Shown: one piece after another, positions 51,434-57,673 of the stretch
Layout: the number at the start of each line of letters is the position of its first letter
Numbering within the stretch: the first letter of the stretch is position 1
Origin: Natrarchaeobaculum sulfurireducens
Lineage (GTDB): Archaea > Halobacteriota > Halobacteria > Halobacteriales > Natrialbaceae
Length of the DNA: 64,000 nucleotides
Assembly (NCBI RefSeq): GCF_003430825.1
Contig: NZ_CP024047.1
Span: 1,736,001-1,800,000 of the forward strand
Direction: 5' to 3'
The notes under the pieces: generated by a model
What the model was told of the DNA's origin: nothing
Database searches by the model: none
What the model saw: the letters and a program-made list of their open reading frames with translations, nothing else
Translations under genes and position numbers: made by a program

Positions 51434-51573
51434 CTGGCGAGCAGGTGCGCACTGACGTGCAGTGGCTACTATAGTCCGACGGTGTTCGCCCCGGTGATTG
51501 TTCTCATCCGGTAGGAATCGAACCGAACATATTCGACGCCACGCGCCTACAGGTACAGTTGGACGCAGTTCGT

Positions 51574-52245
51574 ATGGCCCAGGCGACACTCACGATCACG
51601 ATGCCCGAGCAGGTCTGGATTCAGCAGCTATCTACGGCCTATCCCAACGCGACGTTCCGCGTGCTTGCAGCAGTCCCGGGTGCAGAATCCGGTTTTGCTC
51701 TCGTCCGGATCACCGGGCCGGACGTCGGGGACGTAATCGACGACATGAACGACCATCCACAGGTCACGGAACTCACGCTCGCTCAGTGGAGCGACGACGA
51801 GGCGACGGTACACTTCGAGACGACAGCACCGCTATTGTTGTTCTCCACTCGAGATTCCGGGATGCCGATCGAACTGCCCGTCGAAATCACCGACGGCGAG
51901 GCGACGATCGAGGTTACCGGCTCGCGCGAGCGACTCGCGGAACTCGCCCAACAGCTCGAGAACTTCGGGCTCCAGTACCGCATCGAGCACGTCCGCGAAC
52001 GGCTCCACGAGAGCCAACTCCTCTCGGAACGCCAACTCGAGGTGGTCGCGGCGGCCGTCGACGAGGGCTACTACGATACGCCGCGTCGCTGTTCGTTGAC
52101 CGAACTCGCCGAACACCTCGGCGTCGCGAAATCGACCTGCAGCGAAACGCTCCACCGCGCAGAGGAGGCGATCATCAAACGCTTCGTCGACGACCTGCCC
52201 GGTCTCGACGACGAACCGCTCGAAGAACAGCTCACGACGAACTGA
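51574..52245 (+). CDS. HTH-10 (Bat/DmsR-type) transcriptional regulator
   Basis: A 223-residue haloarchaeal regulator. Residues ~1-150 form a beta-rich input domain (TLTITMPEQVWIQQLSTAYPNATFRVLAAVPG...), and residues ~160-215 the HTH-10 domain: LLSERQLEVVAAAVDEGYYDTPRRCSLTELAEHLGVAKSTCSETLHRAEEAIIKRFV. This group includes the bacterioopsin activator Bat and DmsR, which controls DMSO respiration. The ATG at 51574 is preferred over a TTG five codons up. Its position 437 nt before the ferredoxin-NrfD module, on the same strand, makes it a candidate regulator of that module. Confidence 0.83.
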   Translation: MAQATLTITMPEQVWIQQLSTAYPNATFRVLAAVPGAESGFALVRITGPDVGDVIDDMNDHPQVTELTLAQWSDDEATVHFETTAPLLLFSTRDSGMPIELPVEITDGEATIEVTGSRERLAELAQQLENFGLQYRIEHVRERLHESQLLSERQLEVVAAAVDEGYYDTPRRCSLTELAEHLGVAKSTCSETLHRAEEAIIKRFVDDLPGLDDEPLEEQLTTN

Positions 52246-52682: not shown

Positions 52683-54332
52683 ATGAGTACGGACGACGAA
52701 TCATTCCACCCGCTCGGCGCTGAGTGGGAAAACGACCTCGAGCAGATGCTCGACGAGACCGAGTACGATACGGACCTCGGTCTCGAGATGGCCAAAGACG
52801 CGATGCGCGTCACGAAAGGCGAACTCTCCGAAGCCGAGTTCCACGAGAAGTATCACGACGACGTGATGGACGAGTTCGGCGAGGACCAGCGCCCGACCCA
52901 GGAGGCCTACGAGGAAGCACAGGCCGTCGAGGAGGGGACGTTCTCCCGGATGCTCGATAAGTTCGACGGCGACGGCGAAGACGGTCGCCGCGACGTAATG
53001 AAGAAGATGGGTGCCGGTGCGGCGTTCGTCGGCCTCGGTGCCTGGACGGTTACCGACGACGGCCAGCCCGAACCCGAACCGGGCGTCGCTGCCGCAGAAG
53101 AAGACGACGATGGCGATGGCACCCAGTGGGGGATGACCATCGACCTCGAGCGCTGTGACGGCTGTCTCAGCTGCGTGACAGCGTGTGCCGACGAGAACCA
53201 GCTCGATGCGGGCGTCAACTGGATGTACGTCTTCGAGTACGACGACCCGGACAACGAGGAAGGGACGGACTCCTCGCTCGCTCGCGCCGCTGGTCCGGCC
53301 GCAAACCGCATGGTTCGACCGTGCCAGCACTGTACGGACGCGCCGTGTGAGAAGGTCTGTCCGACGACGGCCCGTCACACGCGGGACTCGGACGGGCTCG
53401 TCCTGACCGACTACGACGTCTGTATCGGCTGCCGATACTGTCAGGTCGCTTGCCCGTACGGCGTCAACTACTTCCAGTGGGACGAACCGGACGTCCCGAC
53501 GGACGCCATCGCAGAACACTACGAGGAGATGGACATGGGCGACCACATGACCGACGAGCGTGGTCGCTGGGTCGACAGCCGTGCCCCGCGTGGTGTGATG
53601 AGCAAGTGTACGATGTGCCCGACTCGCCAGGACGGCGACATGGGCGACGACTTCGTCGGCACGACCGCGTGTTTCGACGCCTGTCCGCCGGACGCAATCC
53701 AGTTTGGCAACGTCAACGACGAAACGAGCGACCCGAAGAAGTACGCCGCCAATCCGAGCCGCGGCCGAACGCTCTCTTCGCTCTCCGTTCCGGCCGCCAG
53801 CGCACTCGAGGAAGACCTCGAAGGGGCCGACGACGACCTCGAGTCCGTCCTCGACGCCGCAGAGGACCTCGACGAGGAGACGCTGGCACTGTTGCTCGCC
53901 GTCGAGATGACCGGCGAGAACATGGGCGAAGCGCCCGAGGGCGAACAGAGTATCATGGCCGAGTACGAACAGGAGGTCCTCGACGCGCTCGAGGCCCTCG
54001 AAAACCACGGCCTCGACCTTGAGGACGAAGACCTCCTCGAGGAACTCGACCTCGAAGGTGGCGAAGGCGACGCACAGGTCGTCCTCGAGCGATTTGCGGG
54101 TGCCCCCTCCTCGAGTTACAAGCTGCTCGAGGACATCGGTACCAACCCGAACATCCAGTATCTCGGAAACCAGCCCGGTGCACGTGCAGAACAACGTGAG
54201 CCGACCGGGACGGGTGTCGAGTACGAGGCCCTCGGTTACGAGCAGGTCACCGGTGATCAGGTCGAACTCGTCGACAACCGCAAGGACGTCCTCGACGAGG
54301 AAACCGTTGGCTGGACGGGTGGTTCCCTATGA
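52683..54332 (+). CDS. Four-cluster ferredoxin subunit (DmsB/PsrB/NrfC-like) with internal Tat-like motif
   Basis: A 549-residue protein. Residues 1-100 are an acidic N-terminal extension. A Tat-like motif GRRDVMKKMG (101-110) is followed by a hydrophobic run AGAAFVGLGAWTV. The Fe-S domain (150-345) has 16 Cys in four groups: Cys158/161/164/168, 214/217/222/226, 247/250/253/257 and 309/312/330/334, enough for four [4Fe-4S] clusters as in DmsB and PsrB. The last ~200 residues are acidic and unlike those subunits. It is ATGA-coupled to NrfD and would pass electrons between it and a missing catalytic subunit. Confidence 0.87.
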   Translation: MSTDDESFHPLGAEWENDLEQMLDETEYDTDLGLEMAKDAMRVTKGELSEAEFHEKYHDDVMDEFGEDQRPTQEAYEEAQAVEEGTFSRMLDKFDGDGEDGRRDVMKKMGAGAAFVGLGAWTVTDDGQPEPEPGVAAAEEDDDGDGTQWGMTIDLERCDGCLSCVTACADENQLDAGVNWMYVFEYDDPDNEEGTDSSLARAAGPAANRMVRPCQHCTDAPCEKVCPTTARHTRDSDGLVLTDYDVCIGCRYCQVACPYGVNYFQWDEPDVPTDAIAEHYEEMDMGDHMTDERGRWVDSRAPRGVMSKCTMCPTRQDGDMGDDFVGTTACFDACPPDAIQFGNVNDETSDPKKYAANPSRGRTLSSLSVPAASALEEDLEGADDDLESVLDAAEDLDEETLALLLAVEMTGENMGEAPEGEQSIMAEYEQEVLDALEALENHGLDLEDEDLLEELDLEGGEGDAQVVLERFAGAPSSSYKLLEDIGTNPNIQYLGNQPGARAEQREPTGTGVEYEALGYEQVTGDQVELVDNRKDVLDEETVGWTGGSL

Positions 54333-55696
54333 GCACCAAGACGCCGACCGAGGCGGACATTCTGCGGCCGATCAAAAACACCTCGAAAGCGTACTTCGTA
54401 CTCTTTGCTGTCGCGGGGCTGGCGTTCGCCACCTTCCTCGCCGGCTGGGCGTACCAGCTTCAGCAAGGGATGGTCGTCACCGGCCTCTCCGACTGGGGAA
54501 CCGGTGGCGGCGTCACGTGGGGGCTGTACATCGGCGCGTTCATCTGGTGGGTCGGGATCGCTCACGGCGGTATCATCCTCTCGGCTGCCGTTCGTCTGCT
54601 CGGGATGGATCGGTACATGCCAGTCGCCCGACTCGCAGAGATGCTCACGCTCGCCGGTCTTTCGGCGGCCGGCTTCTACGTTATCGTCCACATGGGCCGT
54701 CCGGACCGGATGGTCACCAGTGTTCTCGGCCACTACCACATCACAGTCAACAACTCGCCGCTCGTGTGGGACGTGACCGTCATTACGGCGTATTTCGTCT
54801 TGACGGCGACGTATCTCGCACTCACGCTTCGGTACGACATTACGCGCCTGCGTGACGACCTGCCGAACATCTTCGAACCGGTCTACAAGATGATGACCAT
54901 CGGTTACACGAAGAAAGAAGACGAGGTCATCGACCGGATGGTCTGGTGGGTCGCACTCGCGATCATCATCATGGCACCGCTTCTGCTCCACGGCGGTGTG
55001 ATCCCGTGGCTGTTCGCACTGCTGCCGACGTATCCCAGCTGGTTCGGCGGCATCCAGGGCCCACAGTTCCTCACTATCGCACTCACGTCCGCGATCAGTG
55101 GCGTGATCATCCTCTCGTATGCGTTCCGACGTGCGTACAACTGGGACCACATCATCACTGACGACGTCTTCCGCGGACTGCTCCTGTGGCTTGGGTTCTT
55201 CTCCCTGCTGTTCCTCTGGCTGCAGCTCCAGCAGCTCGCCGTGGGTAACTTCTTCCCGCCAGTCGACGCTCAGCCGTCGTCCGCATCGAAGCTCTCGCAT
55301 CCGATGTACGTCATCCCGATGCTGATGGTCGTCGGCGTGTTGGCGTTCATCTTCGCGACCGTCCTTCGACCGTCGCTGTTCACGAAAGCCCGCGCCATCG
55401 GCGCTGCCCTCCTCGTGCTGGCCGCGACGTTGGTCGAGAAGACGTACTTCGTCCTCTCGGGTCTCTGGTACCCAACGTTCAGCATCTACGAGGCCACGCC
55501 CGGTGACTACTTCCCGAGCTGGATCGAACTCTCGTCGATCCTGGGAACCATCGGAATGGTGACGCTGTTCTTCCTCGTCGTCACCAAGGTCGTTCCAGTC
55601 GTTGAACTCCACGCAATCGAGCATCTGCGCGGCGACCACGGCCACGGCCACGACGAGGCCGTTGAAAGCGCAACCGAGCAGGAGGTGGAAGCATGA
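54329..55696 (+). CDS. NrfD/PsrC-type quinone-interacting membrane subunit
   Basis: A 455-residue integral membrane protein with about ten helices, e.g. YFVLFAVAGLAFATFLAGWAY, VTWGLYIGAFIWWVGIAHGGI, LAEMLTLAGLSAAGFYVIVHMGRP. The PsrC/NrfD pattern includes IAHGGIILSAAVRLL and HMGRPDRM. Such subunits exchange electrons with menaquinone or menaquinol, without cofactors of their own, for Mo oxidoreductases and for alternative complex III. The C-terminus is His-rich (HLRGDHGHGHDEA). It overlaps the ferredoxin by 4 nt and its small partner by 4 nt, so the three genes are one operon. Confidence 0.88.
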   Translation: MSTKTPTEADILRPIKNTSKAYFVLFAVAGLAFATFLAGWAYQLQQGMVVTGLSDWGTGGGVTWGLYIGAFIWWVGIAHGGIILSAAVRLLGMDRYMPVARLAEMLTLAGLSAAGFYVIVHMGRPDRMVTSVLGHYHITVNNSPLVWDVTVITAYFVLTATYLALTLRYDITRLRDDLPNIFEPVYKMMTIGYTKKEDEVIDRMVWWVALAIIIMAPLLLHGGVIPWLFALLPTYPSWFGGIQGPQFLTIALTSAISGVIILSYAFRRAYNWDHIITDDVFRGLLLWLGFFSLLFLWLQLQQLAVGNFFPPVDAQPSSASKLSHPMYVIPMLMVVGVLAFIFATVLRPSLFTKARAIGAALLVLAATLVEKTYFVLSGLWYPTFSIYEATPGDYFPSWIELSSILGTIGMVTLFFLVVTKVVPVVELHAIEHLRGDHGHGHDEAVESATEQEVEA

Positions 55697-55998
55697 GCGC
55701 ACTCTCACCCGCACTCGAGGCGCTCCTCTACGCCGGTATCGGCGGCACGGAGGGACTGACCGGCTTCCCGAACATCGGAACCTATCTGATCTTCGGAGTC
55801 GTCCTCGTTCCCGTCTACGTCATGATCGTCGCCTGGTTCCTCGGAGATCCAAGCGACGCCAAAACGGGCGTGATGGGCGTCGTCTACCTCGTCGGTATCA
55901 CCCTCGGAATGTGGGTCCCGATGTTCTTCCTGACGATGCTTATCGGGATCATCTTCTTCGGCGGGGTACCGGAACCGCTCGCCTCACCCGGCCCGTAA
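55693..55998 (+). CDS. Small membrane protein of the NrfD operon, copy 1
   Basis: A 101-residue protein with two membrane helices: GTYLIFGVVLVPVYVMIVAWFLG (~30-50) and TGVMGVVYLVGITLGMWVPMFFLTMLIGIIFFGG (~60-90), a short N-terminus and a Pro-rich end (VPEPLASPGP). The overlap with nrfD (ATGA, 4 nt) means it is part of the same operon, so it is probably a structural subunit of the respiratory complex. It resembles its neighbour at 56176 throughout (LLYAGIGGTEGLTGFPNIGTYLIFGVVLVP...). No family name is known to me. Confidence 0.75.
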   Translation: MSALSPALEALLYAGIGGTEGLTGFPNIGTYLIFGVVLVPVYVMIVAWFLGDPSDAKTGVMGVVYLVGITLGMWVPMFFLTMLIGIIFFGGVPEPLASPGP

Positions 55999-56122
55999 GC
56001 CGACTCCGGTCTTTCGGATTTTTCGGTACTCGAACTCGATTCTCACTCGCTTGTCGTTGCAAGCGCTCGAGCGAGGCGTCAACGGCTCGAGACGCCGACT
56101 ACCCAGTATGACATTACATAAC

Positions 56123-56132
56123 GTGCATGCAC
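56123..56132. promoter_or_regulatory. Palindrome GTGCATGCAC
   Basis: A perfect 10-bp palindrome within ATTACATAACGTGCATGCACG, ~45 nt before the ATG of the second small membrane protein. It could be an operator; TTACATAAC beside it may be TATA-like. Confidence 0.4.
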
Positions 56133-56175
56133 GCCAATGCACTACCACCTCCTCGGTCGGGATAGAGTTCGGCAT

Positions 56176-56481
56176 ATGAGTTCATACGCGGTCCTCGAAT
56201 CGGTGCTGTACCACGGCTACGAGGGGACCGCAGGGGTCACTGGCTTTCCGAACACCGGGACGTGGCTGATCTTCGGGGTCGTGCTGGTGCCGATCTACGC
56301 GATGGTCGTCGCGTGGTTTACGGGTACGCCTCGCGATACGAAAACCGGACTCCTCGGCGTCTCTTATCTCGTTGGACTGGTGACCTCGATGTGGGTCGGG
56401 ATGTTCGTTCTCACCGTCCTCATCGGGATCGTCTTCTTTGGCGGACCGCCCGAACCGATCGGCTCGGTCGGCCCACCCTGA
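56176..56481 (+). CDS. Small membrane protein, copy 2 (paralogue of 55693)
   Basis: A 101-residue protein aligned end to end with its neighbour at 55693: both have GYEGTAGVTGFPNTGTWLIFGVVLVPIYAMVVAWFTG-like and TKTGLLGVSYLVGLVTSMWVGMFVLTVLIGIVFFGGPPEP-like segments, two helices, and the same Gly-Phe-Pro-Asn loop. This points to a tandem duplication. It is not coupled to the operon (177-nt gap) and may have its own promoter, so it may be an alternative subunit for other conditions. Confidence 0.75.
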   Translation: MSSYAVLESVLYHGYEGTAGVTGFPNTGTWLIFGVVLVPIYAMVVAWFTGTPRDTKTGLLGVSYLVGLVTSMWVGMFVLTVLIGIVFFGGPPEPIGSVGPP

Positions 56482-56581: not shown

Positions 56582-57673
56582 ATGAGCATCACCGAACACG
56601 AATTCAAGATCAAACTCGAGGAGGTCGAAGACCCCGATATCGGCGAGGATATCGTCACGCTGGGACTGGTCAACGACGTCGCGATCGAGGACGAGACGGC
56701 TCGCATCTCGCTCGCATTGAACGCACCGTACGCTCCCTCGGAGATGGAACTGGGCAATCAAATTCGGGAGCTCTGTGACGAGGTCGGTCTCGAGGCCGAT
56801 CTGCGTGCCCACGTCGGCGAAGAGCACGGGTTCGATGACACGGTCCTCCCGCAAGTCCGAAACGTCATCGCGGTTTCTTCAGGGAAAGGCGGCGTCGGCA
56901 AGACGACAGTGGCTGCGAACCTCGCGGCTGGCCTCGAGAAACGCGGCGCGATGGTCGGCATCCTAGACGCCGACATCCACGGGCCGAACGTCCCACGAAT
57001 CCTGCCCGTCGAGGGTGAACCCGGTGTCATGCCGAACGAAGACATCGTTCCGCCACGATCCGACGGCGTCCGCGTCATCAGCATGGGATTCATGATGGAA
57101 GACGACGACGACCCCGCGATCCTCCGGGGTCCGATGGTCAACAAATTCATGCTCAAATTCCTCGAGGGCGTCGAGTGGGGCCGACTCGATTACCTCATCG
57201 TCGACCTGCCCCCGGGAACCGGTGACGCGACGCTCAACCTGTTGCAGTCGATGCCGGTCACTGGCTCGGTCGTCGTCACGACGCCACAGGAGATGGCTCT
57301 CGACGACACCCGAAAAGGTGTCCAGATGTTCCAAAAACACGAGACGCCGGTGCTCGGCGTCGTCGAGAACATGAGTTCGTTCATCTGTCCAAGCTGTGGC
57401 GACGAACACGGGCTGTTCGGAACCGAGGGGGCGGACGGGATCGTCGACAAATACGACGTCCCGCTGCTCGGTCGGATCCCGATTCACCCGGACTTCGGTG
57501 CCGACGGCACCTCGGGTCCGATCGTCAAAGACGACGACAGCGAGGTTCAAGACCACATCGAGGAGGTCGTCGGCGAGATCGCCGACCGGATCGGCGAGAC
57601 GAACCGCCGCACAGTCGCCGAACACACACCCGACGAACCGTTCGATACGCTGCCGACCGAGACGGAAGACTAA
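56582..57673 (+). CDS. Mrp/NBP35-family Fe-S carrier ATPase
   Basis: A 363-residue protein: an N-terminal MIP18-like (DUF59) domain, residues ~8-85, then the P-loop ATPase with deviant Walker A SSGKGGVGKTT (99-109), ILDADIHGPNVPR, MPGTGDATL-like DLPPGTGDATLN, and a CPSC pair near 269-272 in FICPSCGDEH that would bind the bridging [4Fe-4S] cluster between two subunits. Such proteins deliver Fe-S clusters to apoproteins. It is next to the ferredoxin module, and this suits a job in maturation; but Mrp proteins are housekeeping and usually serve many targets. Confidence 0.93.
   Translation: MSITEHEFKIKLEEVEDPDIGEDIVTLGLVNDVAIEDETARISLALNAPYAPSEMELGNQIRELCDEVGLEADLRAHVGEEHGFDDTVLPQVRNVIAVSSGKGGVGKTTVAANLAAGLEKRGAMVGILDADIHGPNVPRILPVEGEPGVMPNEDIVPPRSDGVRVISMGFMMEDDDDPAILRGPMVNKFMLKFLEGVEWGRLDYLIVDLPPGTGDATLNLLQSMPVTGSVVVTTPQEMALDDTRKGVQMFQKHETPVLGVVENMSSFICPSCGDEHGLFGTEGADGIVDKYDVPLLGRIPIHPDFGADGTSGPIVKDDDSEVQDHIEEVVGEIADRIGETNRRTVAEHTPDEPFDTLPTETED

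Follow-up and report, generated by a model that had tools for sequence, protein, structure and literature searches.

Pairs comprising a ferredoxin subunit and an NrfD-type membrane subunit usually serve molybdopterin enzymes of the DmsA or PsrA type. Four-cluster ferredoxin and NrfD subunits also handle menaquinone as NrfCD and QrcCD, and related proteins occur as ActB and ActC in alternative complex III (ACIII). For haloarchaea that lack the cytochrome bc1 complex (bc1), the step from quinol to halocyanin has been stated to be unresolved (PMC8305020, PMC3403918), and quinol oxidases have been proposed for natronoarchaea (PMC6176080). Here we examine a gene module in a 64,000-nucleotide stretch of the Natrarchaeobaculum sulfurireducens genome (contig NZ_CP024047.1, positions 1,736,001 to 1,800,000; hereafter the window). 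The module encodes a ferredoxin subunit (FeS1), an NrfD protein (NrfD1), small two-helix membrane proteins (sm1 and sm2) and an Mrp protein, and probably acts as a menaquinol:halocyanin oxidoreductase standing in for respiratory complex III in haloarchaea. No earlier proposal of a complex III role for this module was found in the open-access literature.

FeS1 (549 amino acids, positions 52683..54332; all window features given here are on the + strand) is a four-cluster ferredoxin subunit, predicted to be exported, that matches PF16947 and the Fer4 families. Its 16 cysteines form four sets of four (158/161/164/168, 214/217/222/226, 247/250/253/257 and 309/312/330/334) in a ferredoxin domain at residues ~149-345 (53127..53717), located by profile alignment to 6cz7_B and 6lod_B and by the cysteine positions. 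A Tat-like twin-arginine motif, RRDVMKKMGAGAAFVGLGAW, lies at residues 102-121 (52986..53045), and R102 and R103 are invariant in 14 homologues. NrfD1 (455 amino acids, 54329..55696) is an ActC-like membrane subunit with ~10 hydrophobic helices, and sm1 (101 amino acids, 55693..55998) carries hydrophobic helices at residues 32-50 and 71-89. FeS1 and NrfD1, and likewise NrfD1 and sm1, share a 4-nt overlap of the ATGA type. Gene coordinates and cysteine positions bear out the initial annotation of this DNA, which had described an overlapping series of a 16-cysteine ferredoxin, an NrfD protein and a 101-residue two-helix protein. Because GC3 is ~0.8 in all frames of the set and the frames are kept in other species, these are real genes.

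NrfD1 is placed in the NrfD superfamily by PF03916 (4.8e-20) and by a fold search, in which ActC is the best match to the predicted fold (TM 0.72-0.76). ActC chains are likewise the only matches when the NrfD profile is compared with the PDB. The ActC quinol-site residues W82, I86, F89, H139, L166 and D169 are conserved in NrfD, and the quinol site of NrfD1 includes W64, H121 and D148. At the position of H139, haloarchaeal DmsC and distant archaeal homologues carry Asp, and the divergent copy L157 carries Ser. A tree also placed the protein beside ActC (support 100/97), but this placement was not relied on given the very long ActC branch.

The module has several features in common with ACIII: an ActC-like NrfD with the quinol-site His and Asp, a ferredoxin domain resembling the C-terminal part of ActB (which, with ArrB, is the closest solved protein to FeS1), a two-helix small membrane subunit comparable to ActD, a proposed role in quinol oxidation, and occurrence where bc1 is missing. 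However, the differences are substantial. There is no pentahaem ActA, as no called gene with at least two CxxCH motifs is present in 87 cluster loci, and no monohaem c gene corresponding to ActE was recognised beside the clusters, although single-CxxCH genes were not searched for. FeS1 yields matches only to PF16947 and Fer4 and thus lacks the molybdopterin-like N-terminal domain of ActB, and it keeps all sixteen cluster cysteines instead of having one [3Fe-4S] cluster. No second NrfD equivalent to ActF is linked, since each cluster has one NrfD in the neighbourhoods inspected and the second copy, NrfD2, is encoded elsewhere. In NrfD1, ActC Asp253 is replaced by Leu and the gate Arg (R395) by Lys (K371). 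Finally, the small protein has no detectable homologue among solved PDB chains, and the module set includes an Mrp gene. Because the multihaem subunit, the fused molybdopterin-like ActB domain and the linked second NrfD are missing, the module is classed as one that would work like ACIII without being a member of it.

Other described systems share fewer features. Unlike NrfCD and QrcCD, the module has no attached catalytic or cytochrome subunits, it includes the two-helix protein and Mrp, and the direction of electron flow that we infer is different. NCBIfam gives DsrO (122.6 bits) and DsrP (71.4 bits) as its best matches, and a Lys at the gate position has been reported for DsrP1 (PMC5928083, PMC8076601). 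However, these scores are far under the curated cut-offs (200 bits for DsrO and 350 bits for DsrP), and the NrfD1 quinol site carries His rather than Asp. No DsrM, DsrK or DsrJ gene was recognised in the neighbourhoods inspected, although without a dedicated search. Haloarchaeal DmsB and DmsC belong to the same superfamily, are ~31-38% identical over parts, and share PF16947 at the level of the operon, but the module forms a separate clade, lacks DmsA, and has His at the quinol-site position that is Asp in DmsC. The absence of a catalytic molybdopterin subunit also sets the module apart from the CISM molybdoenzymes (Dms/Psr/Arr). With cytochrome bc1/b6f (PetABD) it shares the proposed job of passing electrons from quinol to a one-electron carrier, but the parts are unrelated, haem b is lacking, and the distribution is largely complementary.

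Searches for the module NrfD, cytochrome b and haem-copper oxidase were conducted in 292 Halobacteria genomes, with the module called at E<1e-150, cytochrome b by PF13631, and haem-copper oxidase by PF00115. Cytochrome b is absent or under the cut-off in 69 genomes, and 67 of these carry the module; the other two (G007 and G093) also lack a haem-copper oxidase. Among the 288 oxidase-bearing genomes, those without bc1 all carry the module (66 of 66), versus 29 of the 222 with bc1 (Fisher p ~2e-42, uncorrected for phylogeny). In family f1, bc1 is found in every module-less genome (10 of 10) and is absent from 56 of the 64 module-bearing ones (p 6e-8). A re-check of 81 genomes of this family with PF00033 confirmed the pattern, and the Rieske family PF00355, used as an independent bc1 marker, was uninformative because it is present in all 81. 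The module genomes without bc1 represent 21 genera and four families (f1, f3, f10 and f11). We also note one genome (G001) that has cytochrome b but neither a PF00115 oxidase nor a strong module match; this is probably an anaerobe in which bc1 has another use.

The oxidases of these organisms are of a type that would call for such a complex. The CuA motif CxExCGxxHxxM is present in 30 of 30 COX2 loci sampled as the best matches of a family-wide search, including loci from genomes without bc1 such as G004, G005, G025, G028, G119, G181, G191 and G196, and is also kept in the COX2 of N. sulfurireducens itself (L206 7976-9049). Because the CuA site is intact, these oxidases need a one-electron donor. 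The module occurs where a functional complex III would be expected, in 66 of 66 oxidase-bearing genomes from which bc1 is absent, with CuA in 30 of 30 oxidase loci sampled.

The gene set itself is broadly conserved, in many genera. Among 123 NrfD loci, 79 have FeS, NrfD and Mrp together, and 67 of these also have a recognised small gene; eight loci are partial owing to contig ends or missed open reading frames, and 36 are orphan NrfD2-type copies with no constant neighbour. The FeS-NrfD-small-Mrp set spans families f1, f2, f3, f4, f7, f9 and f11, and sm1 orthologues follow NrfD in other families. Named relatives from the NrfD search are mostly Natrialbaceae, and outside Halobacteria, within the same phylum, only distant NrfD proteins of one family (f15) were found. 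The conservation of this set without a catalytic gene, together with the ActC quinol-site residues, supports the earlier suggestion of a stand-alone quinone-linked complex, and a search of the open-access literature found no known complex with the same genes. The initial annotation had missed two points: the probable electron acceptor, a blue-copper protein, and the probable replacement of bc1 by the module.

We therefore consider the following scheme. Menaquinol would be bound and oxidised in NrfD1, at a site close to the outer side of the membrane, and its electrons would pass into the exported four-cluster FeS1. FeS1 would then release them singly to a membrane-anchored blue-copper protein, halocyanin, which would in turn reduce the CuA site of haem-copper oxidase or, in denitrifiers, a copper nitrite reductase. 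The two-helix protein or proteins would be accessory membrane subunits, Mrp would load the four iron-sulfur clusters ahead of Tat export, and proton translocation is possible. In this scheme we infer the direction of flow, halocyanin as the acceptor, formation of a complex, the roles of the small proteins and Mrp, and proton pumping.

Copper-protein genes near the module bear on the identity of the acceptor. Four loci (L138, L140, L160 and L167) have a halocyanin gene immediately upstream of FeS, with PF00127 confirmed for those of L138, L160 and L167. The module of L145 is flanked by a NirK-type multicopper gene on one side and NorB on the other, and L147 is arranged likewise. Overall, a halocyanin or NirK-like gene is found at 26 of 79 cluster loci versus 4 of 36 orphan NrfD loci, although these counts are modest and related genomes are among them. 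An alternative is that the module oxidises menaquinol but forms a supercomplex with the CuA oxidase and passes the electrons to it directly, with no free halocyanin, as ACIII can do with caa3 (PMC5928083). The patchy halocyanin linkage and the presence of only two PF00127 proteins in the N. sulfurireducens genome fit this arrangement, but genes for halocyanin or NirK lie next to the module in several genera, drawn from two or more families, and we consider a direct transfer of this kind unlikely.

It is also conceivable that the module runs in reverse, taking electrons from an outside donor to reduce menaquinone, as the FeS-NrfD dimer does in Qrc (PMC13059093). Sequence by itself does not fix the direction. 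However, the universal presence of the module in aerobic genomes without bc1, along with CuA oxidases that demand quinol oxidation, and the ActC-type quinol-site His (Asp in the homologues compared), which points to quinol oxidation, make reverse operation quite improbable. We give about the same low standing to the possibility that species without bc1 use quinol oxidases, as proposed for natronoarchaea, and that the module does something else, such as serving denitrification. NirK-like genes are indeed near 22 of 79 clusters, but the CuA ligands are intact in every COX2 examined, which argues against the quinol-oxidase proposal, and every one of the 66 oxidase-bearing genomes without bc1 has the module, whether NirK is nearby or not.

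The remaining explanation is that the module anchors a molybdopterin enzyme encoded elsewhere, as the initial annotation had allowed. Four PF00384 (molybdopterin) proteins are encoded by the N. sulfurireducens genome, all far from the module, in agreement with the earlier remark that no catalytic gene lies beside it. Of these enzymes, the three examined, which do not include the NasA-like one, each come with a ferredoxin subunit of their own. The survey of homologous loci that had been suggested found no molybdopterin subunit inside the operon in 87 cluster loci and only two (L050 and L158) with any such subunit within ~10 kb, of which the first has its own B (ferredoxin) and C (membrane) subunits and the second is a weak match. 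Seven module-bearing genomes among the 292 have no PF00384 protein whatsoever, two with bc1 (G203 and G127) and five without it (G020, G032, G043, G101 and G207), including three single-contig genomes (G043, G101 and G207). Despite the usual pairing of FeS-NrfD with such enzymes, a molybdopterin partner elsewhere in the genome was rejected, since the five PF00384-free genomes without bc1 that keep the module exclude a hidden molybdoenzyme as a general explanation and leave this reading with a very small probability.

Several points weigh against our preferred reading of the module as a menaquinol:halocyanin oxidoreductase. Shared ancestry inflates the p-values, and kinship was handled just by counting genera and families. 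Replacement is not strict everywhere, as 29 genomes have both bc1 and the module, and one genome (G129, locus L141) has the module without cytochrome b or a PF00115 oxidase; because of these genomes, the role of the module may be wider than simple bc1 replacement. Direct halocyanin linkage occurs in few genera and is absent from the window, and the scarcity of PF00127 proteins in this genome points the same way. The NrfD1 model is of moderate quality (pLDDT 64) and the site of ActC D253 is altered, and the structure prediction for FeS1, made from a shallow alignment, was poor and was not used.

If the oxidoreductase proposal is correct, the module supplies a candidate operon for the menaquinol-to-halocyanin step in the approximately one-third of haloarchaea that lack bc1, and a single gene deletion makes the complex III question testable. 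More tentatively, and with somewhat less than even confidence, we suggest that a complete complex III, minimal and free of haem and molybdopterin, is formed by FeS1, NrfD1 and the two-helix protein. It would oxidise menaquinol, reduce halocyanin, couple this to proton translocation through NrfD, and take the place of bc1 in roughly a quarter to a third of haloarchaea. If true, an NrfC/NrfD pair would suffice as a complete complex III without a haem or molybdopterin-type subunit, a result that would bear on the origin of ACIII.

The two-helix paralogue sm2 (56137..56481) is 65% identical to sm1 and follows it, as the initial annotation had noted, but the two genes do not overlap and are separated by 138 nt, or by 177 nt counting from the ATG at 56176. 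The true start is probably at 56176, because this ATG aligns with sm1 and other orthologues. Not all clusters have such a second two-helix copy, and the duplicate is confined to some of the Natrialbaceae. The Mrp/ApbC-type iron-sulfur cluster carrier ATPase (56582..57673; PF10609, 3.4e-90) had been treated as a boundary of the module, but this gene belongs to the conserved set and is its last member, after FeS-NrfD(-small), in 79 clusters. Upstream of FeS1 lies a gene for an HTH_10 (Bat-like) transcriptional regulator (51559..52245; PF04967, 1.8e-19), a homologue of which is immediately upstream on the same strand in 49 of 79 clusters, including most of those from Natrialbaceae, and in this family it likely controls the operon. 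Inspection of the sequence upstream of FeS1 for promoter motifs revealed no convincing element.

The PF16947 'Ferredoxin_N' domain of FeS1 (residues 9-73, 52707..52901; E 3.9e-35) is fused ahead of the Tat-like signal and contains none of the cluster cysteines. In DMSO-reductase operons from other haloarchaea, PF16947 forms a small gene of its own that immediately precedes dmsA and overlaps its start (L210:9066-9431 and L211:9212-9448). Because it lacks cluster cysteines, the domain in FeS1 may serve in maturation or export and not be a ferredoxin.

Besides NrfD1, the N. sulfurireducens genome has two NrfD genes, a DMSO-reductase anchor and the unlinked NrfD2, a 76%-identical paralogue; G020 has only one NrfD of the module type. 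A constant partner for NrfD2 was sought and rejected, as its neighbours vary (acetyltransferase-like, permease-like, and in some cases an FAD oxidoreductase). An FAD/NAD-type oxidoreductase gene (L038:7429-8667) directly upstream of NrfD2, with similar genes near NrfD in several other orphan loci, might feed or share NrfD2. NrfD2 (L038:8848-10191) and a second ferredoxin subunit, FeS2 (L039:9224-10606), are encoded separately. FeS2 lacks one cluster cysteine, and because the C312 position is Asp, its sequence suggests a [3Fe-4S] or Asp-ligated cluster.

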